Below, piece by piece: positions 3,627 through 62,224 of a stretch of 64,000 nucleotides of DNA (position 1 is its first letter; the number at the start of each line of letters is the position of its first letter). The stretch is from Xanthostigma xanthostigma (lineage: Eukaryota; Arthropoda; Insecta; Raphidioptera; Raphidiidae): the NCBI GenBank assembly GCA_963575645.1, contig OY754466.1, positions 19,756,001 to 19,820,000 of the forward strand, read 5' to 3'. The notes under the pieces are model-generated. The model worked only from the letters and a program-made list of their open reading frames with translations, had not been told where the DNA came from and did no database searches. Both the position numbers and the translations under genes were made by a program.

Positions 3627-3942
3627 CAGGGCCGGCATCACCCTAAGAGGGTATAGAGAGGACTCCCCACTCGGAAAAATCTCATTCGGAAATTTTAAGC
3701 AATTCTGATATTTATACCCTGTGTATATCGCCTGGAAGCAAAAACGAGACTAATCCCATGTTCTAATGTAAAGTTGGTCTTGTTTTTACTTCAAGTATTT
3801 AGCACGAAGAAATAGATTTTTGAAAATCGCGCGCTGAATCGATAGACACAATTCCAATTTTTTGTTGGTGCGGAAGAGGGGGGAGGGGGCTTTTTTCAAA
3901 ATCAAACTACCCACTCGGGCTGAGCCTGTTCTGCCGGCCCTG
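3627..3942. mobile_element. hAT-type MITE with 8-bp target duplication
   Basis: TIRs CAGGGCCGGC and GCCGGCCCTG are flanked by identical CATTTCGA (3619-3626, 3943-3950). It is 316 bp and non-autonomous. A different family from the CAGTGGCGG elements. Confidence 0.9.
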
Positions 3943-38196: not shown

Positions 38197-39717
<1,521 letters not shown>

Positions 39718-40095: not shown

Positions 40096-40178
40096 GTCAG
40101 GTTGGCCGAGTGGTCTAAGGCGCCAGATTTAAGCTCTGGTTCCCAACAGGGAGCGTGGGTTCGAACCCCACACCTGAC
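40096..40178 (+). tRNA. tRNA-Leu(UAA)
   Basis: 83 nt with a 7-bp acceptor stem (GTCAGGT pairing with ACCTGAC), A box TGGCCGAGTGGTC, anticodon stem CCAGA/TCTGG around loop TTTAAGC (anticodon TAA), the long variable arm of class II leucine tRNAs, and T arm GTGGGTTCGAACCCCAC. No intron. A T6 run at 40194-40199 serves as Pol III terminator. Confidence 0.96.
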
Positions 40179-40193
40179 AATATGGTTCATAAA

Positions 40194-46915: not shown

Positions 46916-49900
46916 TTATAATTGTTCAATGTGCGTATGTTTATGTTTATTGTAGTGGCATAACTGCTTGAACTGTTTACCGCAAATCTGACACTCGTAT
47001 GGCTGTTTTCCTGAATGCAACCTTTTGTGCACTGTCAGATGACTAGGTTGAACAAAACATTTTTCACACACATTGCACTTATGTGGCCGATCTCCTGTGT
47101 GCGATCTACGATGAGATGACAGGTGACCAATTTGAGAGAAACACTTATCGCATTCGTCACATCTAAACGGCTGTTCCCCGGAGTGAATTCGCTTGTGTAC
47201 GAACAGATGACTCATTTGAGTAAAACTGGAAACCAAATAGTACCTTTTTATTATCAGTTGCATTCACGTCAATTAACAAGACTAGAGAGTAGAGAATATT
47301 ATAATTTTGGATGTTAACATAAAAAAAAATTAAGTGAGATAGCAAAATACCTCTCATTTGATATATATCCTACAGTTTAAATTCAGTAATAGGCAACTGG
47401 GCGACAGATTCAGTATTCTGTCTATTTGATAACGTATTTACTGTTCGGTCAAATACTGAATCTTATTCAACGCTTAAGAATTGGAATTTTTAATTAACAC
47501 TAAACTTGATAAATAACAAATGACTACACAATGACTGTAGATACAAGAAAAATGACAAGCAAAAGCAAACGTATGATATGTATAATTGGGGAGTTCTTTT
47601 TTGTAACAGGAATTTAGCAATTGTTTAGCAAACGAAACAATAAGATATTGTAACAAGATCTGAAATAATAAAATAAATTTAAAAAAAATTAATATACGAA
47701 CTAAAAAGTATAAAAATATTTTTTTTAACTTGTAGGATTTGAAACGAAAATCGTGGGGCGCATTATTCTTTTAATCTCATAAATAGATTTTTTTCATTGA
47801 TAGCTACTCTCTACACTTCTTATATAACTGTAGCATGCGCCCCACTTTTTCGTTTCAAATCCTACAAGTAAAAAAATTATTATGGTGGGTTGAACCCGCG
47901 ACTTTCGCGTTGTTATCACGACGCTCCACGCAACTGAGCCATGACGGCTGATAGCCAGCTGTCGTATAACGGTAAGTAAGTAAGAATGAATTATATGTAT
48001 TTATTAAAATTTCCTTATTATTTTTACTACTTTCTTCTTTATTTTAGTATTTTCTCGTAATGTTATCTAATACTGAGTTATGTTAAAAATTTCAAGTCTC
48101 TATGTAATCAGGAAATTAGTTTAAAATCAATTACAAATTCTGCCCGACATACACTAAAAGCAAGCTCATATAAGAGCGTGGTAAAATAGATGTTACTGAA
48201 GCCAAGGTATAACAGAGAATGAAACAGATCGCAGATAACAAAATAGTATTCTAAAATATGCCAGTAACTGAAATTACATCACGGTGTTACGTGCGTTACG
48301 ATATCTGTTTACTTGGTCATACTTAGCAGTCTAGTCAGTTTGACTTCAAATTTGTTTTGAATCTCGAACTGGGAACAAAATGAAAGTAGTAAGCACCGAT
48401 CGGCTGGACGTGCGATTTCTACAGCATATTGACACGTCACAAAAGAAAAAGGTAATTTTTCTATAAGCATATTACAATATGTAGACATAATATTCGATAA
48501 TTTTCATTTTTTTTTTACATTAAAATGAAATAGGACTTTCCAAAGCCTCCTAGTTATACCGGATATGTTAATTAATAATCTCTAAATTGATTGGTCCGAT
48601 GAACAAACAATCACTACGCGATTGACCGGTTGATATAATATATCAAATGATATATTATATCCTTGACCCTTGTGCTCTGGTGATCGGGTAAAATATAATA
48701 TGAAAAAAAAAATATAATGGTGGAAAAAACAAATTATCTAATTCCACGTTCAGATCAATGTTTTTCAACCGTTACGTCCAGTTCCACAGATAATTTCCGG
48801 AATCATTCCTCTTGATCAAAACAGTTGCACTATTTGCATTAAAAACAATACAGTTGTAGATGTCTTGATCAAGAAAAACAGTCCCGGTAAAAGGAAAACG
48901 ATGGGTCAAAGTCACCTCTTGTCGCACACCTCACAACTGTGGGGCTTCTCTCCCGAATGCGATCGCTTATGGCACATTAGGTGACTCATTTGAGCGAATG
49001 CCTTGTCGCACGTGGCGCAACGATAAGGTTTCTCGCCACTGTGAAGTCTTCTGTGTGCCGCCAAGTGGCTGAGCTGTTTGAAACATTTGTCGCATTCCGT
49101 ACACTTGTAGGGCCGTTCACCGCTATGTAGTCTGCTATGGGCTGACAAATGAGACATCTGTGAGAATTGTTTACCGCATAGCTCGCATCGAAACGGTTTC
49201 TCTCCACTGTGGAGCCGTTTGTGTGCAATCAAATGACTAGTCTGCAACAATTAGAGGTGTTAGTTATTGGCTTGAAACTTATCTAATGTAATCCCACGTA
49301 GCGAGTTAAAATATTCTATGTATTAAGGAAGTACCCTCGATAAATGAATTAACAAACAGAAAATTACGAAAATTTGCAAATATGTCAAAACCTTTTCAAA
49401 AATGACTCAGTTAAATTTTTGTGATTTTTTGTTGACTTTGAAAAAAGATATTGATAATTTTATTTCGCTGCACTTAACATGGAGTCTTATGGAAGTCTGT
49501 GATTTTGACGCACTCCATCATTTATTACGTTGGAATTGACAAACAGATTTTGATAAAATTTTCAGGAAATATAAACGAATATTTTATGAACATTTTTCTT
49601 TTTCCAAAACGTATAAAGCTTGCTTATGTTAATAGAAATTACTAAAACAAAGCCGAGCTTTTTAGCAATTCATAAACATGGCAACACCGTAATATTATAG
49701 TTTGTGGCGCGTCATTCAAAGGAAAGTTACGAAACTGCAGCAGTTTTGATTTCGTAAAAACATACGTAAATTCAGTAAATTCTAAAAGCATAGTATTCCA
49801 AATGATAGTATATTATTATTTCCGAAATGACAGGAATAAAGAAAAGCATATTCTTAAATTAATGCGAATTTGACACCGCGTGCTGACTTATGCTGCGTAC

Positions 49901-52030
49901 ATAAGCACTTGTAACTATGGCAAGGCATGCGGTGTTGCCAAATTATAAACTACGTTACTCAAGTGGAAGACTGAAATTCTTTGACTTACTGCGTACCGAG
50001 GGTACTTCCTTAAAGCCATAGAGATATTACAATAGAGTACGCGAGAGAGCAGTGAAAGTGTCTGCAATTAAGAGAGAGAACATTTTCTTATCTCTATGGT
50101 AACTAATGATGCAAAACAATGCTGAGTAAACAAATGTCTGGTTTTCTGCAGCGTTCTCTCTTTTAACTGAGGCAGAGAAGAGAGACTGTATAGAAGTTTA
50201 TTTCTAATGGAACAGTGTGGCCGGAAATTTTAGTTTGACTTGTTTCTGTTGATGACAGAACGATCGGTGTACAGATGTGGGGGACGTATATTTCCATCTC
50301 TCATCTTCAGAAGTAAATTTGAGCGTTTATCTAAACACCGTAGAAAATAAAAATGCAATAATTAAGGTGTGAAGCTGAAATTATTAATTATTATCGCCAC
50401 CTAGCGTTGCGGTTCCGAAGCTTGAGTGCGCCGCAAGGCCATTTTGACAATTGGAGTGGGAACTGCGCTTTGGGGTGATCGCCAAATATAATACAGGATT
50501 TAACTTCTATACAGTCTCTCTTCTCTGACTGAGGACAGTTTCTTTTATGGCAAGCATACGCACTAACGTACTCTAGTTACTGTATGAATTTGAAAAGAAG
50601 ACTGGTCTATGGAATGTACTATGACCTTATTGCAGAAGAGCGCACATGCATTTTATATTAGTAAAAGGTAATGATCCTGGAACCGCTTCTATGCAATAAG
50701 GTACACATCAGCGACTTCTCGCCCTTTCCCCACCGGTCTTCTTTAGCCGAGCGCACTGTACTTATCTCTATGATTAAAGCTCATTCTTAAAAAACTAAAA
50801 AAAACGCGTTTTTCTAGCAATGTGCATTAAAAGCGTGCTTTTTTAGTTTTTTAAAACTATAGTTTTAATTATTAAAACCACGCCTATGGAGTAGGCAACG
50901 CGGCGTACATCGCTGTACGGCATGTTAGCCCGCTTACAGTTAAGAATTTAAATGTAGGTGGGAACTTTGGAGAGAACTCACCCCGTTCAAAGAACGGTTA
51001 TCTCAGCCAGTAATAAATAAAAATAGATTTTTCTTACGGTTTATAACGGGCGTTAAATTTATTAAATTCTTATAGTAAATAAAACTATTTTATTCAACAC
51101 GCGTGGGTAATATGTAATTTCGGGGCCCTGCTAAATTCGGGAGAAATAATAAATTACTTCATGTTGACGCGTAGAGTGCTAATAATAAGCCGTACTGTGA
51201 GATAATGAATTTTCTGGATCAATAGGAACAAAGTAGCAAGCCCAAGCAGCTAAATAATGAAAAAAAACTGCACAGCTTCTGGACCAATAGGAACGTGGTA
51301 GGCGGTATTGTATATATGAAAACAGCATCGCAATTCAGAGAAAGTCATGGCCATCTTGTGTGCATCGAGGGCGATGGGTACGTCAATCAATGAAGTGATT
51401 TATTATTTTTCCCTCTTTTATCAGGGCCCCGATTACATATTAATCGTGCTAGTTGAATAAAATATTATGTGCGACCATTGATCGAAGGAGAATATTCCAC
51501 TCGCGTGTTACCGCACTCGCTACGCTCGTGCGGCAAATTTCACGCTCATGGAATCTTCTCCTTCTCTCATTAGTCGCACAATATACTATTCTTCATAATA
51601 ACAAATATTTCCCCTCGCGTTTAAAGATTTCTGAGCAGAAAATGTCTTTTTCTGTTCTTATGAAAAATGGACACCGATGAATTTTATTGTATGTACGCCT
51701 GCTTAAACTTGCCTGTTTAAATGATTTGGAGCACACGTCGCAGCGAAATGGCCGTTCTCCGGATGTAGTGTATGGTCGAGGTTTATGAGTCGTCGTAGCA
51801 TTGGTTACGTTGAATTGTGTCGACGGTGAATCCGTCGTCAGGTTTGGCTTTGTATCAGGAGTGCTAACAAAATCAGCATCGGCTTGGTTCAGTATCGCGT
51901 AAACATTTTTTAAACTAAACTCACTTTTTTTATCGTCTGCAGTTATCTCTTGAATATTGGTATATGGGTTAAAAAATATATTCTGAATTCCATGCGACAA
52001 ATAACTGTATGCAATGTTTTTGTCTTCCAT
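46916..52030 (-). CDS. C2H2 zinc-finger protein with eight tandem fingers
   Basis: Three exons, 52030-51713, 49241-48916 and 47225-46916, encode 317 residues. The start is the first ATG after an in-frame TGA. Residues 1-90 are acidic/polar with no known domain. From Cys97 onwards there are eight fingers of the C-x2-C-x12-H-x3-H type, spaced every 28 residues and joined by SGEKP/SGERP/TGDRP linkers, a pattern typical of sequence-specific DNA binding. All eight keep their four zinc ligands. Both introns fall inside a finger: intron 1 after KSFKQ in finger 1 and intron 2 after CDK in finger 5; finger spacing is exactly restored by splicing. Intron 1 starts with GC (CAG|GCAAGT), supported because the join gives KSFKQTSHL in frame and no nearby GT does. 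The finger set resembles conserved multi-finger factors but I cannot name an orthologue. Confidence 0.93.
47727..47877. repeat. Inverted-repeat MITE in zinc-finger intron 2
   Basis: TTGTAGGATTTGAAACGAAA...GTGGGGCGCA is mirrored by TGCGCCCCAC...TTTCGTTTCAAATCCTACAA around an AT-rich centre. A tRNA-like sequence abuts its right end. Confidence 0.8.
47883..47950 (-). repeat. tRNA-Ile-like SINE head or tRNA pseudogene
   Basis: Minus strand: CCGTCATGGCTCAGTTG (A box), GAGCGTCGTGATAACAACGC (anticodon arm with loop ATAACAA, formally AAC) and GTCGCGGGTTCAACCCACC (T arm). The order resembles tRNA-Ile, but the acceptor ends do not pair and the T stem is imperfect. Confidence 0.55.
48380..48451 (+). 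CDS. Candidate first coding exon on the opposite strand, unidentified
   Basis: An ATG at 48380 opens MKVVSTDRLDVRFLQHID, then TSQKKK, ending at a good donor AAG|GTAATT (48452). A TCAGTTTG initiator-like word lies about 45 bp upstream. It falls within intron 2 of the zinc-finger gene, antisense to it. I could not find a convincing second exon, and no family is recognised, so this may be chance. Confidence 0.25.
50173..50527. mobile_element. 355-bp TIR element with 7-bp target duplication
   Basis: The ends CAGAGAAGAGAGACTGTATA and TATACAGTCTCTCTTCTCTG are perfect inverted repeats. ACTGAGG stands directly outside both (50166-50172 and 50528-50534). It lies in intron 1 of the zinc-finger gene. 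The 7-8 bp duplication suggests hAT or a relative. Confidence 0.85.
51091..51584 (+). repeat. Promoter-bearing 500-bp repeat, copy 2
   Basis: Matches 23597-24099 along its length, best in TATATATGAAAACAGCATCG, GGCCATCTTGTGTGCATCGA and the second hairpin unit (GCACTCGCTACGCTCGTGCG). The upstream tandem block is degraded. It lies in zinc-finger intron 1, about 130 bp from the GC donor. Confidence 0.85.
51707..51712 (-). other. Non-canonical GC splice donor of zinc-finger intron 1
   Basis: On the minus strand the exon ends ...AAACAG and the intron begins GCAAGT, matching the U1 consensus except for T to C at +2. The acceptor is TTGCAG at 49247-49242. Joining restores the C-x2-C-x12-H spacing of finger 1. 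Confidence 0.85.
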
Positions 52031-53950
52031 TCTGCGAGTTTTTCATTTCACAGAGATAACCGTAATTTACATTTCAGTTTATAGGTATTAGAGTTCATCT
52101 CTGCTCTTTAGAAATTTTAAAACAATTACAAAAAACTCACTATCTAAAATGTAACATATATTATTGTACACTTAAATTAAAGCCTTTCAATAATCAGAAA
52201 AATAACACGACGAAAGTAGTTTCCCTGTTTTTACACTAGCATATTCATCTCAGATTTCACTTACATTAACGGAATATCACTTCTACCCCATTTTTAAGTA
52301 GAACAGAACCTTCTATTCGTTATTTTCGAACTTTTATTTTTTATCTAAATACAAAAGTAATAAATTAACATTAAATAACAAAGGATTGGTCATCTTTGAC
52401 GTTAAAAAAACTTGAAAATCCACGATTTTTCTACACGTAGGGTCCTCACTAAAGATTGAACAGTGAACTCGTCACTCGTGAGTCGTGAACTGAAATTGGA
52501 AAAATGTTCTAAAAGTTTGACAGGTTGTAGTTGTAATATAATATTTAGGTAGATATATTTGTTATCAAATTGCGTTTAATCATTTAATAATGGAAATGGT
52601 CTTAAGTTAAGGACTAATGAATTTGAAATCCTTAGGAAGATTATGGTCAGAGAACAAATGTTGTAACCAGTGATTAGAGAACAGGTAATTATTGTAGCGC
52701 CTAGCGGTGGCGACTGGCGGCAAAGTCACAAACGTGTTCTTTTGGAACAATATTATTGTACAGTAACAGTTGATTTTATTAACTTTCCAGTACATTGGGA
52801 AGCTATTGTTGGTTCGAAAATCGAAATAAAAATTTGTAACAAATTTTTATGTTTCAAGGTTTTAAACTAACTGTTTTTAAACTAACTGTTTTTAAACTAT
52901 TTTTACCCGACTGCGACGCAGCCAAAAGGAAAGGTTATGAGTTTAGCAGTCTATCAATGTTTGTATTTACGCATATTTCACCGTAGCGCCTAAACTATTC
53001 ATCCGATTTTGATAGAATAGAATAGAATAAATAGAATAAAATATAAGGTGTCAATCGATTCTTTATTATGATCTGGGTAACAAAGGCTATATTTATTTTT
53101 GAATTTTGGTCCCAGGGGTTAGCAAATTGGAAACAAAAAAAAAACCGACTATTAGTGTAGTACACAAGTTTAAAAAAAATACTCGTAAAAAATTACCCAT
53201 GGCTCATTGGACTCGGAATGACGTCTAGAAAAATGTACTAAAATATTTTAAAAGTTGTAAACAAATTATGATGAAAGAAAAAATATATTTATATAGTTTT
53301 TCGCTGATATCTCAAAAACTATAAGCGATAGCCAAAATCGGAAAAAAGATTCTTAAAGAGAAGGAAATTTCCAATAAAAAAGCCCCATCTCTCGGGACTC
53401 TATCTCTATTGTTTATAGTTTTAATTTAACGTTGAAAATAGGGTGTCACGCAGCCGTTACAGCTCGAGCGCACAGCCCTATTGAGAGAGTACTATATATA
53501 AAATAATTGTTTTGTAGTATTAAATAACAATTTAAAAATTTAAATAAATTATGGTGTCATCTTAACACTTGAAAGAATAAAGTTACTTAAAGAATAAAGT
53601 CACCGTTAACGAGATTTTCATGAAGACCCGTTTTTTGTGACTTCTCATCCCGCGTAATATTTTTAGCGGCAAATGTATCGGTGGGGACTTCGGGTATATT
53701 GTTTAGAGCCTCGAAAGGAAGGTTCATGAAAAAAATCTAGCTTTCCCCTAATTTTTTCACAATAAAATGTCTCTATTCCCTGCATTATTAACAATATTGT
53801 AAACTCAAAAATACCTAGTGAAAGTCTATCATAAATAAATCAACTGAATATATTGGTTAACTTTGTTATGGTAACGCTATTTTGAAAACGTACCTATTCA
53901 TTTTTTGTAATTTGAAGTGACAGCTCAGATAATTATTTTAAAAATAACTT
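52031..53950. promoter_or_regulatory. Head-to-head intergenic region, zinc-finger and V-ATPase e genes
   Basis: The two genes diverge from this 1.9-kb stretch, so both promoters should lie within it. I see no clear TATA/initiator pair. The right half contains dispersed repeats: a CCGACTGCGACGCAGCC stretch at about 52910, a microsatellite-like (GAATA)n at 53016-53040, and a lone arm of the 26530 family at about 53290-53450. Confidence 0.4.
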
Positions 53951-56900
53951 ATGGCGATAGAATGGGTTACCTTTGGTATATTTAGCGGTTTTTGGTGGAC
54001 TATAGGAATTATAGGACCTTGCATAGTTTCCTATTTTTCTAAAGATTGGGATGTAGGGTAAGCATATTCTCATTTTTAGATTTATTGAAGTGAAAACTTC
54101 TATAGGTGTTACCGGACATGTTAACGTTAACAGTATATCTGTAGAGTGCTGTATACAGAATGATTCATGAGGAAATGTTAATAATGTACGTTTTTGGGGA
54201 CCCAAAATAAACATAAAAGTTCCTATAAACATAGGTCCTATTCTCAAACCCTTACAGAGATACGGGGGTAAACAAAATATTCAAATTAAAATTTTTATTA
54301 AATTACAACTTTCCAAACCGGTGGATTGGTCGAGGTGGTCCGAATAATTGGCCATCTAGTTTGCCAGACCTGTATCTCCGTAACGGTTGAGAATAGGACC
54401 CATGTTTAATGTTTATAGGACCTTTTATGTTTATTTTGGGTACCTAAAATATTGACATTCCTCTTGAATCATCCCCTGTAAGTAAAGTTAAATTCACTAC
54501 GTTATTTCATATAGTTAGTTTTAAGTTTTCATTTCCGTCGTCAGTTCTCAATGACTGCCTATTTTAATTTTTTTTCTGCGTATATTCAGTATTACTTTAT
54601 TGATGTAGGTCATACAAAGTATGTTACATAAGTCAGAAAAATACATAAGTCAGAAAATATTAAGAAAAATTTAAAAATTCCTCAATGCTATAGAATGCGT
54701 TTTAACATAGAAATATCTTTATAGCGTTTTTAAAAGTTTTTATTTCCATACATTTATAATGATCTGGAATTTTATTATATAGCTTGGGTGCAAAGAAGTT
54801 TATCGAAAATTCTGATTTCTTGAGTCTTAGTAAATCAATAACTAAGTGGTGCCTGTTCCTGGTTGCATAATTGTGCACATTTGAATGGATATCGTAGTTT
54901 TCACTATTAGTCTTAGCATATAATAAGCATTCATAAACATATCTGCTGGGGAGAGTCATAATGTTATACTCAATAAACTTGTCTCTTACATCAGCTCTGT
55001 AATTTATGCCTGACAGAATTCTCAGAGCTTTCCTCTGTATTTTAAAAAGGCGTTGGGCTTAGATCCTATAGTAATTTGTTTTTCTGTGAGAACAATCTAT
55101 CAAGCTCTACATAATATAGTTTCCACGTAAATATAAAATGTGATTTTATGGTCACAAACTGACGTACTGTCAAATCAGTTTTTCTGACGATGCTTTCTGC
55201 AACCCGACATTGTACTCGTTAGCGTGATAAAATTAAGAGCTCGGCCGTTCGAAATTGCAAAGATTTCTAATCTATACTAATATTATAAAGAGATAAAGTT
55301 GGGATGTAGGAGGTAATCTCCGAAACTACTCATGCGATTTCAAAAATTTTTTCACCAATATTTAAAAGGACCTTCAGGCTGGACGTAGGCTATATATTAT
55401 CACGTTAAAATAAAACCGCTTTTCGTGGAGACCAATTTTCCAACGTGAGTCGACGAAAATTAACGGTGGCAATCTACAAATTCGGACGAAGCCAGACCGG
55501 GCCGCTAGTTAACGATAAGTTTTAAAAAAAGCTGAATGTTTGTACCTGTAGGCTGGGTAGGGTGATGGCGGGTTAACGGTAGCGGCTAATTCTAGCTTCG
55601 TGTAGCTTTCTTCGATCGGATTGAGCACGTCGGTGACGCTGAACGGCGTCGTATGAATCGCACTCTGCGGTGCAAATGGTGTAAATGCAGGAGATGGTGT
55701 TTGGGGCCAGCTCGACCCCGCTCAGTTCTGACAGTCCTATTCATTCCGTTGCTGTCACCGTCACCGCCGCCACTACCCGGTGCGGAATGTTCGTCACCCG
55801 ACGCACCAGTCGCTATAGATACCTACCCTTTAGGCTATGTCCTACGTAAATTGATTCTGCTCATACGGTAAATAAATTAAAGCTGAACATAACCTGCTTG
55901 TCTTGTTTGGTCGAGTCCATGGACGATCGAGTCAAAACTGAATCTTCGCTCGTTCAGCTCGGTTTTTGTTTCCCAAAATCGAAATTCGTTTATTTTCGCT
56001 ATACGTCCGTGATTGGGTCACCTAACTCTATATATGTACCAAATTTCAAAATGTTTTAAGTTGTGACACACGGACAGACACGAGGGGTATCCTATATAAG
56101 TATTTCATTTTTTCATCGGATGTTTGGAACCCTAAAAACTGAAGGGTTTTACGCAAAAATTGAATTGACTTTACTTTTTGGAACGAAGTTTCTTATGGGA
56201 CGTTATAGATATAAACGGAGACCTAGCCCTCTCCATTTATATCTATATAATAAAATATCTATAAAAAATCGTAAGAAAAAAGTGCAAGAAAAAAGCGTAA
56301 AAAACATAAAGAAAATCTACATATATAATTACTTATTGTATGCCTGTCTGTAGACATAGATAGTTGAAATTTGGCACACTTACAATATAGGGCATGGGAC
56401 AGATCCCAACGGAGTCGAATTTTTGAATTTTGGTCCTAAAGAGGAGCAAATTGAAAACAAAAATGTTTTTCGCTTGTAACTCGCTCAATTTAAATCAGAT
56501 CGGTTCTAAACCTGCCTTAAACGAAAAAGAAGAAAATTTTACATAGATTTCGTATAATAGAATTCGCGCAAATAGTTTTTTTATACATAAAAAAACAGAA
56601 ATAAACACTGTATAAATTCGATTTTGCCTAATACATCGCGCACGCGGATTGGTTATCCTTTTCTGGTGTTTGGACATTTAAAGATTGCGTATGTTCTGTC
56701 TTAAAATTAAAAAAATTGCATTTGTTCAAAAACGAACTTCACGATTTGTTATTAAACCTATATAAATAGCGATATATAGGCAAGGTCAATGGCTCAGTAG
56801 TAGAATACTCATCTGCCATGCGGGTGTCCCGATTTCGATTCCCGATAGATGCGCAACAAATGTTATTTTTATATTTTTAGAGTTGCAAATCACACGATTA

Positions 56901-58881
56901 AATTTTGTTTAATAATCATATTATATTATAAATAAAATTTTCGAATAATTTATCAGACTTTGTAAAAATATTATATGACACATAATAAATAGCGAAAAGA
57001 ACTTCGTTCCAACCAGGTGTTTCACGACACCTCTCGTCTTTTTTAGAAGATTTTGGTAATTTTTCGGTGTATTATAAAATGGGAAGGAAATAATTAACCA
57101 TATTTTTTTTCTTTTTTAGATTGATTAACCTATGTATTGTATTAGCCGCATTTTTGGGATGGTCGTTGTAAGTTCATATTAGTATTCTTCAATAAATATA
57201 ATTATCGACCAATTTTTCAGACAAATATAAGTATTAACAAAAAATATATATTAGTGTTGATACATATACTCAAGAAGTTATTATATTTTAACAATAAATT
57301 AATATTTTTATAAATAATCATATTTTAGGTTTTGTAATTTTATTTTATAACACTTGTTTCGTACAACACAATGAATTGGTCAGACAAATAATCGTTGACT
57401 GACGAACAGTAATTCAAAACGCTGTTTTTTTCTGACCAAATTTTCTCGAAGTTTCATACCCTCCTGAACGATTTTCCACCATTTATACAGAATGATCCAT
57501 TTTAATCTTACCAGGCAGATATTTGAAAACAATGGGGTTAAAAAAAAGTTTCCAACAAAAGTTGTATAGAGACCAAATGGTGACCGCGGTTCGTATCCGG
57601 ATAGCAAGCAAGTTTTTCACGGTCGACTATGGTGCAATTGTTTATTTTCAGAACATAATAAAGAGTCATTCTCAGAAAATAATTAGAAATTAAGACACCA
57701 AATATCATAATAAAAAACTTGATTCGATATTTTATCCATTTCATTTCCTGGTATTGATTGTGTTTTGCACATAAGATAACAATAGATTTCAAAGAAAAGT
57801 TTTCTAAACAAAGCAAGTAGTCTAGTAGTAGATGGGCTAATAAAATGGTGAAAGACGGTAGCAGAAGGAGTTAAGGGGAAGGAGGCTTAAGTTTTCTGGA
57901 ACCCGAAAATTCGACAGTGTTTTGAAACGGACCCACAGGAAAAATAATTGAAGACAATTGATATATGGGCTATGTGCACGGAGGCGGAGTTACAAATTTT
58001 TCGATGCGAGCGTTTGTGGTGTGCACTAGGGGAAACTTCGATCTTCAATTTTCCGTATGTCAGTGGGCAATGTTTATTAAAAGTGAAAGTAGTTATAATT
58101 TTATAAAGTTTATTAATTACAAGGAAAACATAGGAAAACTAATCGATCTGGAAATGCTTGTTGTGTTCCGGGCTGTTGCGCGCTAATGGCGATTTAAGTA
58201 AAATAAAGACCATTGGCGCCCTGATTTGACGTTCCGCAGTCAGCGTAAACAAATTAACATCAGTTTTCCTTATTACATTTTTTTTACACATCATGGCCAA
58301 CTAAAGTTTTTCACTTACCACCTTAGAAACATGTCGCGATTTCCATAAAAAGTTAGTTCAATAATTCTCTATTACCCACTAGCGGCGCTAATAGGCTTCG
58401 TGCACACAGCCTATAGAGTGTACTTGTATAGATATTAGATACAATTGGAAACACGTTTTTCCACCATCAGTACCGTCACTGCCACCACCTATCATTTGTT
58501 CCATTTTTTTAAAACTTTTTATACAAATATTGTTATAGCCAAAATATAATAATATTTTATTGTCTTTATAACCACATGCTCTTCTCGATTTCGAAATTAT
58601 AAGTTCCGAAATTCTGGAATTGTGAAACAGATATCGATATCGGTTCCGGAATTGAGAATAAATTGATCTTAGACTAATAGAGGCCCCAGTGGCTGTTAAA
58701 ATCACAACCACACTTTCTTGCACATAGCACAGACCCTAGCAAACGTTAACTTATTTCCATAAATGTTTTACACATTTTACAATTTATTTTCAGTTGGCTA
58801 TGCTGTTATCTAGGTCAAGCGAATCCTCTGATAGGACCGAAATTGGGAAACCATACTTTATTGATAATGGCTAGAGAATGG
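53951..58881 (+). CDS. VhaM9.7: V-type proton ATPase subunit e (VhaM9.7 family)
   Basis: Certain coding exons 53951-54057, 57120-57167 and 58794-58881 (GT-AG, phases match) encode 81 residues. The ATG follows an in-frame TAA two codons upstream. Subunit e is a small two-helix membrane protein of the V0 sector. The first helix lies in VTFGIFSGFWWTIGIIG, the second in LINLCIVLAAFLG. The family signature WLCCYLGQANPLIGPKL is followed by a luminal NHT glycosylation sequon and MAREW. The 3-prime end is ambiguous after the donor GTAAGT at 58882. One reading uses TTTACAG at 59776 and adds QVNNIPGSFC (stop 59809, 91 residues in all). The other uses TTTTTTCTAG at 59238, puts TGA first in the exon and has AATAAA at 59369. 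Intron 1 (3.1 kb) holds a LINE fragment, an antisense TN-domain exon and a tRNA-Gly relic. Confidence 0.88.
54148..54482. repeat. Inverted-repeat element of 335 bp in V-ATPase e intron 1
   Basis: Arms share ATTCTCAA/TTGAGAAT, GACCCAAAATAAACATAAAA with its diverged mirror, CCTATAAACAT and ATGATTCATGAGGAA/TTCCTCTTGAATCAT. No coding region. Confidence 0.75.
54702..55060 (-). pseudogene. C-terminal fragment of a jockey/CR1-type LINE reverse transcriptase
   Basis: On the minus strand the frame reads IQRKALRILSGINYRADVRD, IMTLPSRYVYECLLYAK, NYATRNRHHL, FFAPKLYNKIPDHYK and a final FKNAIKIFL. This is the pattern found after the catalytic domain in jockey/CR1/I-clade LINEs (LPSLYIYE, NYxTRN, KLxNxLP, FKxxLKxxL). 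The catalytic YxDD core is missing upstream, so this is a 5-prime-truncated, dead copy, antisense in intron 1 of the V-ATPase e gene. Confidence 0.85.
55268..55512 (+). repeat. Retroelement-like repeat tail, copy 1
   Basis: CTCCGAAACTACTCATGCGA, GGCTATATATTATC, CTTTTCGTGGAGACCA and CGGGCCGCTAG recur in inverse order on the other strand at 62300-62558. The end pattern resembles the other RTE-like tails. Confidence 0.7.
55546..55720 (-). CDS. scro: Exon with Nkx2-1/scarecrow-type TN domain (partial gene)
   Basis: Minus strand, frame starting CAA at 55703: after a proline-rich lead (TPSPAFTPFAPQSAIH) it reads TTPFSVTDVLNPIEESY, then TKLELAATVNPPSPYPAYR. TPFSVxDIL-x-PxEESY is the TN (tinman) motif at the N-terminus of NK-2 class homeodomain proteins, and this version is the Nkx2-1/scarecrow type; the motif recruits Groucho corepressors. 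A donor CAG|GTACAA follows at 55545. No in-frame ATG lies between an upstream TGA and the domain, so the exon must be entered by splicing, with CGAG at 55711 or TGAG at 55721 as possible acceptors. The homeobox exon was not found at lower coordinates. It is GC-rich compared with its surroundings and antisense in intron 1 of the V-ATPase e gene. Domain call firm; intact gene status uncertain. Confidence 0.65.
56066..56140 (+). repeat. Short copy of the 6306-6666 repeat 3-prime end
   Basis: GACAGACACGAGGGGTATCC and GGAACCCTAAAA reproduce the end of the element at 6306-6666. Confidence 0.6.
56780..56853 (+). pseudogene. tRNA-Gly(GCC)-like relic
   Basis: GGCTCAGTAGTAGAATACTC (A-box/D-arm), TCTGCCATGCGGG (loop with GCC) and TTTCGATTCCC (B box with a mismatch) follow the order of tRNA-Gly(GCC), but the acceptor and T stems carry mismatches. 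Pseudogene or SINE head in intron 1 of the V-ATPase e gene. Confidence 0.65.
57967..58412 (+). mobile_element. P-like MITE, copy 2
   Basis: GGGCTATGTGCACGGAGGCG to TTCGTGCACACAGCC; matches 41116-41552 throughout with scattered substitutions. The THAP-like start is damaged (ATG to ATA, and a frame change after the CCVPGCC codons). It lies in intron 2 of the V-ATPase e gene. Confidence 0.75.
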
Positions 58882-59924
58882 GTAAGTACGGACGTATTTA
58901 AAGATTTTTTTAGGACATCGTGAAGTTTTAGTCTTACTTTTGAATGCATATTTGGCATATTCATGAAAAAGTATACTTTAAAGGCAATATTGTAATGATA
59001 AATATATTTTTTTTATAATAAATTCCAAATGATTGTTTCCAATACGATCCACTACAATTTTATGATTCCTACCGGCAACAACTTTTTTCAACTGGCTACT
59101 TACTAGTCTTCGCGTTCAAGAAAAATAAAGAACACCATGCATCTAGAGCGGCCAACAAACACATAATTAAAAAATTTATTTACCGAGCTTTTTAACAGTC
59201 CTTATAAGATATATTTTAACGTTGAATCTTTTTTCTAGTGAAACCACGCACCCCATAATTATTCTTAAAAACATACTCATCACGATACAGAAAATGCAGG
59301 ATATATCACATTTATAATATTAATTATAATAATGCAAACAATACATTTTGTTACTTTGTATTGAGAAAAATAAAAATATAGAAATGTTGAACAGTCCTTT
59401 ACTCGAAGCAATTTGGCGTAACTTTAGTAACTTCAGTCAGGATAATACTTCAGGTCTGATATTTTCAGAATAGAATGAGGTTACCAAACTTATGTAATGT
59501 ACCGTATTTTATTTTTATAGTCGTGCCACTTTAGATTTTATTAATGTTTATAAAAAATGAATTTTACTTTCGTTACATTTTAAAGAAACTCGCCTGTCAC
59601 ATAACATAAAAGTGTTTTTCAATAGCTCTGAAGTTGGTTTCGTAGTATCCATCAGTAAATTATTATACCTCTTTTAGTTTATAATAAAATGGCTGATCAT
59701 ACAATAATTTATCTACATGATTCTGATATCTTTTATTGCTGAAATGCTCCTTAAAATGAATCATCCGTGTTTACAGCAAGTCAATAATATTCCAGGAAGT
59801 TTTTGTTAGCTGGTTTACTCGAACACTATAGCGTAAACAATCTATTTCAAAATTTAAAAATAGCAACAATGTTGCAAACAACGAAGGTAGATGAGGGTTG
59901 CATTTTAGATTTTACTAGCAAAAG

Positions 59925-60240
59925 AACGAATGGGGGGGAGGGACATGATTACGCACGTTTATCTTAGTTTACCGAGATGAATGTTGTGTCCAAATTTCAT
60001 GATGATCGGAATTACCGTTGGAAGGTTTTTGTTGAACGGACAAATTTTGAGTTATATTTTGCAACATTTTTCATTGATGCTCCGTTCCTATTGGTTATAG
60101 CGTGATATTATATAGCCTATAGCCTTCCTCGATAAATGAACTATCAAAAAAAAAATTCAATTCGAACTAGTAGTTTCTGAGATTAGCGCATTCAACCAAA
60201 CAAACAAACTCTTCAACTTTATACATAATATATTAGACTA
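59925..60240 (+). mobile_element. RTE-type tail, copy 3
   Basis: A continuous copy from GGGACATGATTACGC through TTTACCGAGATGAATGTTGT, CCTATAGCCTTCCTC and GATTAGCGCATTCAA to the (CAAA)n run and a degraded TATATTAGA end. It serves as the uninterrupted reference for the SINE-split copy at 31130. Confidence 0.75.
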
Positions 60241-60378
60241 TTAATTGAGATTAATTAATTTAACAATAGCATATGTTGCCTTTTTAACCGACGAAAAACA
60301 AAAACGGAGGAGGTTCTCTATTCGACGCGTATATTTTTTTTTTTTTTTTTATTTTTTTTTATTTTTTTTTTTTTTTAT

Positions 60379-60695
60379 TTATGTATGACCACGCATAACT
60401 TTTTACAGAGTAGTCCGATTTTGATATTTATTTTTTTGTTTGAAAGGGTATACCCCGAAGTTGGTCCCATATAAATTTGGTAAAAAAATTCCAACCCTAA
60501 GGGTAGGAAAACAGGGGATGATTGATTGTTTACTCACTGATTGTAATGTATGACGACACATAACTTTTTACAGAGTAGTCCGATTTTGTTAATTATTTTT
60601 TTATTGGATAGGGTATACCTCGAGGCTGGTCTCATATAAATTTGGAAAAAAAATTCCTTCCCTAAGGGTGGGAAAATAGGGGTGATTTATTGTTC
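60379..60695 (+). repeat. Tandem duplication of about 160 bp next to a T-rich tract
   Basis: Two units share CATAACTTTTTACAGAGTAG, GGGTATACC, CATATAAATTTGG and CCCTAAGGGT. A 50-nt tract of T runs separated by single A (60330-60376) precedes unit 1. Confidence 0.85.
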
Positions 60696-60764
60696 TCTCA
60701 CAGATTTTCATGCTGTGTTGTGTATTACAATTATAAATTATATAGCCACAAAAAATTATAAAAT

Positions 60765-62224
60765 AAAAACTTTTTAACAAAAAAATTAAACCGCCGAAAA
60801 ACTGAAAAGCAAAAAATAATAGATCTGTTTATTTAACTAAGTTCTAATTAAGTAGTCGAACGTATGTGACAGTCTAGTATATCTAAGTAATTTTGAGTCG
60901 GCGTCAAACAATCAATTAACAAAGATCCAGTGGCGGATTTACAGATTTGCCGCCTGTAGGCTATTCAATTTTTGCCGCCTCTGAATTTTGATATCTTAGT
61001 CCACAATCGTATCAATTACATTTTCTATCAATGAAATTCCAACTTTATGATTTGTGTTCCAACTTTTCTCGTATGGTTAGTATCATTGAGAATTAATAGT
61101 CCAAGAGACGGCTGCAGAAAATGTGTCGTCATAAGGTGGACGAACGAAAAAATTAGAGATGATAGTTAAGACCATAATTAAGAAAGATCGCTAAGGTTGC
61201 CTGCGAAAATCCTGCCGAAACAATGTTTTTTTAATTTGTTTATCAGTTAATAGACCAGTGAAGTTAGCTTTTGACAAGGACAAAATTAATAACAGAAAAC
61301 GAATGATGAGGAAGGGAAGAAACTGCCGTCAGAAATACAGAAACCAAAAATTCAAATGCGTAAAAGGCCGGAGGGCTGTGGGGGGTGCATTTTAGGGGTC
61401 AAACGCGGTTTTTCGTTATTTCCGGCGAAAGTTGACCCCCAATCGAAAAATGTTGTATGGCAATGTTGTAGGTATTAAAAGGATCTGCAACTTTTATGAA
61501 TATAACTTTTTCACATAACCTTAAAGATTTAAAGAAATATTGAAAAAACCGTGTTTTTTGTTTTTAATTTTTTTATCGAATCGCTATTGCGATATTCTAA
61601 AATTTCATGATCATTAAAGGATATTTTACAAAGCGCTTAGCAATTGTTCATGTAGAGATGTTGAAATATTTAGTATTTAGCACTGTATATAGGACTATAT
61701 TTCGATTTTTGTTAAATATTTTGATTTCTCTTTAATTTTCGAAATTCGTATTTTGTGTGGATAATAATTTTTTGTTTAATTTTGTAAATCGAAATAAAAA
61801 ACTTATAAACTAAATCTGCCGCCCCTTAAAATTTGCCGCCCTAGGCTTCAGCCTACTCAGCCTGCTGGTAAATCCGCCACTGCAAAGATCACTAAAAGAA
61901 ATAACCAAATCAAATTAACAATGATACGTGAAATCTCCGGCGATAAACATTAACATTCTAAACATGCGCTCTCCACACGACCACTCGCAAAGACGTGTGC
62001 CCTCAGGGTGTGCCCGTTCGGGTTGCTCTGTCGCTGACATTAACTTCGTGAACTCTCAGAGATTTCCGGCGAAGGATTGTTGACGCCGACTCAAAATTAC
62101 TTAGATATACTAGACTGTCACATACGTTCGACTACTTAAATAGAACTTAGTTAAATAAACAGATCTATTATTTTTTGCTTTTCAGTTTTTCGGCGGTTTA
62201 ATTTTTTTGTTAAAAAGTTTTTTT
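60765..62224. mobile_element. TIR element with about 150-bp ends, carrying a hAT insertion
   Basis: Left arm 60765-60915 (AATTAAACCGCCGAAAAACT, ACGTATGTGACAGTCTAGTA, ATTTTGAGTCGGCGTCAA) is mirrored in 62078-62224 with few changes. The hAT element 60928-61882 accounts for two thirds of the length. The remaining interior (61891-62077) is GC-richer and non-coding. Confidence 0.88.
60928..61882. mobile_element. 955-bp hAT-type element with 8-bp target duplication
   Basis: CAGTGGCGGATTTAC and GTAAATCCGCCACTG ends, flanked by identical CAAAGATC (60920-60927, 61883-61890). The right subterminal GCCGCCCTAGGCTTCAGCC matches the 307-bp element at 1796-2102. Longer, but without a transposase frame. Confidence 0.93.

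Follow-up and report, generated by a model that had tools for sequence, protein, structure and literature searches.

The locus lies on contig C3 of a 623 Mb genome assembled in 28 contigs, which gene content and repeats mark as probably that of an insect, within a window (the whole stretch of DNA that was analysed, 64,000 nucleotides, C3:19756001-19820000) whose minus strand encodes, at 55546-55667, the peptide TTPFSVTDVLNPIEESYTKLELAATVNPPSPYP, a TN motif of the kind that defines the NK2.1/scarecrow family. Elsewhere in the window there are an exon of the ribosomal protein S12/S23 family (38331-39465, minus strand; PF00164, RpS23 by eye), C2H2 zinc-finger exons (46919-52042, minus strand) and a tRNA-Leu (TAA) predicted by ARAGORN (40096-40179, plus strand). 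Around the motif, the features are as follows, C8 being the contig that carries the homologous gene.

53951-54057, plus strand: candidate exon 1 of V-ATPase subunit e, its frame and donor recognised by eye
54650-55060, minus strand: young fragment of retrotransposon type, probably a LINE end (name by eye), up to 98% identical to places elsewhere in the genome (40 candidates scored)
55271-55508, plus strand: short non-autonomous Helitron, A/TC...CTAG/T, 238 bp, abutting the copy; genome copies 87-90% (11 rows), ends compared with 10 other copies
55510-55823, minus strand: partial copy of a scarecrow TN exon, with the TN codons, the part upstream of them, the donor and ~36 bp of intron; from blastn to C8, own-genome DNA search and global alignment
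55544-55545, minus strand: GT splice donor, retained at the site homologous to the C8 donor (CTACAG/GT)
55546-55667, minus strand: TN-motif codons (QSAIHTTPFSVTDVLNPIEESYTKLELAATVNPPSPYPAY plus two bases), stop-free, with a single 9-bp in-frame insertion relative to C8
55664-55666, minus strand: potential acceptor predicted from sequence (AG at 55666-55665, exon start 55664), beside a 2-bp insertion relative to C8
55668-55823, minus strand: decayed upstream part of the copy, from alignment to C8
55894-55920, minus strand: short frame MDSTKQDKQ with GTTATG after it, not part of the C8 homology (blastn to C8 at E 0.001 gave nothing here)
55972-56140, strand unassigned: older dispersed repeat, right of the copy (best 40 of 500 candidates)
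56175-56600, strand unassigned: very abundant dispersed repeat (best 40 of 3468 candidates)
58794-58881, plus strand: V-ATPase subunit e, last exon (PF05493, 29.8 bits, cut-off 25; splice sites by eye)

Much of the initial annotation of this place, namely a TN motif of Nkx2-1/scarecrow type with a splice donor, in a GC-rich island and antisense to a V-ATPase gene, is borne out by our data. In frame after TTPFSVTDVLNPIEESYTKLELAATVNPPSPYP the minus strand reads CTACAG/GTACAA, with the exon end at 55546 and the donor at 55545-55544, and GC content amounts to 0.553 in 55550-55849, to 0.38-0.48 in intervals that overlap the island and to 0.20-0.43 in the remaining intervals of 50000-62000, an AT-rich region. 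Searches of Pfam at E up to 1 matched neither this TN frame nor its C8 counterpart. As for the host, described before as subunit e with the TN exon in its intron 1, the last exon stands through PF05493; candidate exon 1 had no Pfam match (E up to 1) and no middle exon of the gene was found. The copy runs antisense to V-ATPase subunit e, lies before the last exon of that gene and probably within one of its introns, 'intron 1' being the likely location.

A genome search with the 40-aa TN peptide returned two places (2 candidates, both scored), which are the window itself and C8:46875131-46875241 on the minus strand, the latter with 92% identity over 37 aa and E-values of 2.9e-16 (protein) and 1.7e-55 (DNA); likewise, an own-genome DNA search gave two places. 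Judged by these scores, homology between the two TN exons is far beyond chance. On C8 the motif belongs to a scarecrow gene whose exons follow each other in order on one strand over ~44 kb: a TN exon with an ATG, exon 2 and three exons that share the homeobox. The succession of TN exon, second exon and homeobox exon is typical of NK2.1 genes, and MSLSPKH is the usual start of NK2.1 proteins. The C8 TN exon reads MSLSPKHHPHLHHLHQSAIHTTPFSVTDILSPIEESYRKLELAATVNPPSPYR and ends in CTACAG/GT; its frame stays open farther upstream and its ATG is a candidate start. Exon 2 (46872089-46872349) is a single match in the genome, exon 3 ends in RRKRRVLFTQAQ, exon 4 lies at 46856899-46857006 (94% identity) and the last homeobox exon was matched at 46831741-46831812 (92%, E 1.9e-7) by a query whose letters are in part provisional. 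The junctions are in phase by eye, both between TN exon and exon 2 (PPSPY-R/STSSGSSINSP) and between exons 2 and 3 (DPRFA/ISRLMG). From its sequence, then, the C8 parent gene is apparently intact, its last exon being known there from the search match alone. About 5 kb upstream of the C8 TN exon sits a retrotransposon (C8:46880150-46884014, minus strand, locus L021) that looks copia-like by eye and carries a 990-aa frame and others.

The window exon was previously left with two options, either the 5' end of a scarecrow gene with an intron of more than 55 kb that holds at least four other genes, or a copied or displaced 5' exon, and a complete scarecrow gene with its own TN exon elsewhere, combined with a lack of transcripts from the window exon, was named as the sign of a pseudogene. 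Such a gene exists, on C8, and it contradicts the first option while the second is supported. To take the window exon for the genuine first exon of scarecrow, spliced across a very long intron past other genes, would agree with the intact donor and TN codons. However, the scarecrow gene with its own TN exon sits on C8 and no NK2.1-like homeobox was found on C3, which together make a giant intron unnecessary and leave this reading with practically no chance of being right; given the C8 gene, and barring a misjoin of C8 and C3, we reject it. In fly, the scro locus contains several large introns, as stated in an excerpt of a report on it (PMC12060249).

Searching the genome with an NK2.1 homeodomain yielded 44 matches, five of them on C3 and each of these 40-50% identical to the query; among these matches and those of the PF00046 profile, no NK2.1-like homeobox was found on C3. 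A second NK2.1 paralogue on C3, which we considered as well, was not found, the five C3 rows being only 40-50% identical to the query. Nor do any of the 95 genome matches of PF00046 fall within C3:19756001-19820000, and an earlier scan of the minus strand below 55546 for KIWFQN-like codons had found no homeobox exon. Six of the eight C3 homeobox places were inspected: five are homeobox frames of non-NK2 type by eye, and at the sixth no homeobox emerged from a motif search. C12 (78%) and C10 (75%) carry the closest of the other NK2-like homeoboxes. The second scarecrow exon was not found on C3 either (a genome search places exon 2 on C8 only), and no partner exon for the window TN exon was found on that contig. 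Elsewhere, four homeobox matches lie inside one 1124-aa open frame (G000 C11:13107603-13110371, plus strand), which we take to be perhaps a multi-homeodomain gene of ZFHX/zfh2 type.

Window positions 55510-55823, an unspliced copy of ~314 bp, align with C8 ~46875087-46875431 at 73% identity over the gapped DNA match, a level that argues against an assembly or haplotype duplicate. Divergence differs along the copy. In the upstream part (55668-55823), the copy departs from C8 at 27 of 151 aligned bases, with G/C on C8 and A/T in the copy at 22 of these; relative to C8 it lacks 23 and 13 bp at two points and has 3 and 2 extra bp at two others, while three further 1-bp gaps at the alignment edge depend on the aligner, another alignment giving an 8-bp gap there. 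The 13-bp gap removes the ATG of the homologous exon, the homology to C8 is spread over three window frames, and in the homologous window exon the TN motif is preceded by no in-frame ATG; an upstream one might be joined to it by splicing. The TN part differs at 11 of 113 aligned bases and has one 9-bp insertion, the only indel in the TN codons and a multiple of three; three amino-acid replacements, I>V, S>N and R>T, affect the TN motif region. In the intron part, 4 of 36 aligned bases differ, and the alignment is interrupted by one gap of 2 bp and one of 3 bp, plus one of 4 at its edge. Because donor and intron are retained, the copy is not a spliced retrocopy, and we rule out processed retrocopying on the ground that the donor and ~36 bp of intron were kept and exon 2 was found on C8 only.

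Are the TN codons under constraint? We compared 35 aligned codons, leaving out the insertion, and counted 10 base differences and 3 amino-acid differences, which averaged over paths correspond to 5.5 synonymous and 4.5 non-synonymous steps. Simulations started from the C8 sequence, with synonymous changes only on one branch and neutral changes on the other, and were retained at 10 differences (3851-3934 runs per setting). The neutral expectation is a mean of 5.4-6.0 amino-acid differences against the 3 observed, and at most three were seen in 4.1% of runs at kappa 1, 6.0% at kappa 2 and 9.4% at kappa 4; the frame stayed stop-free in 72-84% of neutral simulations. The TN codons thus have marginally fewer amino-acid changes than neutral decay would leave (P 0.04-0.09), which is no more than a hint of constraint. 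Better preservation than neutral, an indel that is a multiple of three and an intact donor together leave room for past or present use, and if the TN codons were in use, this would be a lone regulatory motif exon living by itself.

Such use could take the form of a live exon, which would encode a short TN-motif peptide or serve as 5' exon spliced to another gene, and compete with Scarecrow for partners. In line with this, the frame is open, the donor intact and the number of amino-acid changes somewhat lower than neutral, and a join from the upstream ATG frame to the candidate acceptor would be in phase 0. That frame, MDSTKQDKQ with a GT after it at 55920-55894, is present as initially annotated; the statement that its phase would not fit a direct join turns out to be wrong, since it would join exon start 55664 in phase 0 (AAG CAG / AGT GCG). 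The putative peptide would read MDSTKQDKQ followed by SAIHTTPF..., end at a TAA stop (55511-55509) and count 60 aa. Moreover, an isolated TN peptide of NKX2-3 can act alone in bEnd.3 cells: excerpts of the respective study report that in vitro a 24-aa TN peptide kept partners from binding and that a TN-only construct lowered Madcam1 in these cells, and cite the tinman domain as recruiting Groucho (PMC9718832). Against a live exon, however, the P value is marginal, 72-84% of neutral simulations are stop-free as well, the upstream donor (CAG/GTTATG) looks weak by eye, no partner exon has come to light, and I>V, S>N and R>T lie within the motif region. The phase-0 join itself may well be chance, as joins of this sort can arise easily. 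So to our minds, a live exon is very unlikely. Even less probable is that the copied exon now acts as a separate TN-motif micropeptide or as an antisense regulator of scarecrow. In the former case, the 60-aa peptide spliced from MDSTKQDKQ would titrate Scarecrow's partners; in the latter, the V-ATPase e pre-mRNA would contain the complement of a segment of the scarecrow TN exon and might give rise to small RNAs that target scarecrow. The longest identical run between the window copy and the C8 TN exon measures 23 bases.

In our opinion, the window very probably holds a dispersed, unprocessed scarecrow pseudo-exon that was copied from C8 to C3 and is decaying among mobile elements. On this account, ~314 bp made up of a part of the scarecrow (NK2.1) exon that is the first one recognised as coding, of the donor and of the adjoining intron bases would have been copied from C8 into C3 at the level of DNA or unspliced RNA and would have landed antisense to V-ATPase subunit e, before the last exon of that gene. 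There it would have decayed neutrally, as a pseudo-exon of the unprocessed kind, with mobile elements settling on either side. With no in-frame start codon and neither an NK2.1 homeobox nor a second scarecrow exon found on C3, the copy should not make Scarecrow protein, and since the full gene persists on another contig of this genome, the copy is most likely a dead remnant. While the copy itself, its source gene, the broken upstream frame and the neighbouring repeats are shown by the sequences, we infer that the copy is not expressed and that neutral decay extends over all of it. The copy shares with the first coding exon of C8 scarecrow the TN motif (92% over 37 aa) and the position and phase of the donor. 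Unlike that exon, it has no in-frame ATG, a broken upstream frame, the 9-bp insertion, three amino-acid changes and no other scarecrow exon found on C3; of the features of a functional NK2.1/scarecrow gene, it has the TN motif, and no exons for an NK2.1 homeodomain were found to follow on its strand. Like unprocessed (duplicated) pseudogene fragments it keeps intron and donor and is truncated, with a decayed upstream part, yet in contrast to typical ones it is short (~314 bp), single-exon and on another chromosome, with TN codons that are still open. The apparent anomaly of a developmental gene split by a huge gene-containing intron is thereby resolved as a dispersed exon copy, one at which annotation by homology could place a false first scarecrow exon on C3. 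Among the literature titles listed none concerns this locus, which is a weak negative; for general background we refer to excerpts of two further sources (PMC9616798, PMC6466738).

The repeat surroundings bear on how the copy reached C3. The right end of the copy (~55823) is a sequence break, and for the ~150 bp beyond it no second genomic place was found in own-genome DNA searches (in one of them, the best 40 of 500 candidates). On the left, the limit of the duplication is concealed by repeats that adjoin both copies: the Helitron in the window and a different one on C8. Flank searches for a wider copy gave repeats or nothing (40 candidates scored in each). Left of the Helitron there is old repeat sequence at ~55064-55221 (40 candidates scored), preceded by the LINE-like fragment, whose lower end was sought no further than 54650 and whose frame had no Pfam match at E up to 1. 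By eye, the Helitron starts with TC in 10 of 10 other copies (preceded by A in seven) and ends in CTAG/T in eight of the 10, in CTAA/T in one and in a diverged sequence in one. The C8 repeat (C8:46874850-46875086, ~240 bp; best 40 of 2943 candidates) borders the scarecrow intron at nearly the same point; its terminal sequence, CACATCACTA, is found at the end of all 10 aligned copies, and its left side is truncated compared with 10 other copies.

One conceivable route is that a Helitron read past its own end, picked up the exon and carried it to C3. The Helitron adjoins the copy with its 3' end facing it, close to the C8 exon its family is represented by a 127-base piece (85%) that is oriented alike, and Helitrons with captured gene fragments are reported for silkworm in excerpts of PMC3789558. 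Still, the element, 238 bp long, is a regular member of its family that has a CTAG/T end itself, the far end of the copy is not CTRR/T (by eye), on C8 it is a different repeat that directly borders the exon's intron, and a later insertion into the copy would explain the contact equally well. While the window copy resembles the silkworm fragments described in those excerpts in being a gene fragment beside a Helitron, it differs from them in lying outside the element's 3' end, with no new CTRR end seen (PMC3789558); that is, it lies beyond the CTAG/T end and not between the TC and CTRR ends of one element. With no new Helitron end visible beyond the copy, read-through capture is unsupported, and we regard it as very unlikely. 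Lastly, two unlike repeats, the CACATCACTA-ending one on C8 and the Helitron in the window, stop at almost identical positions next to their respective TN exons, which may be coincidence.
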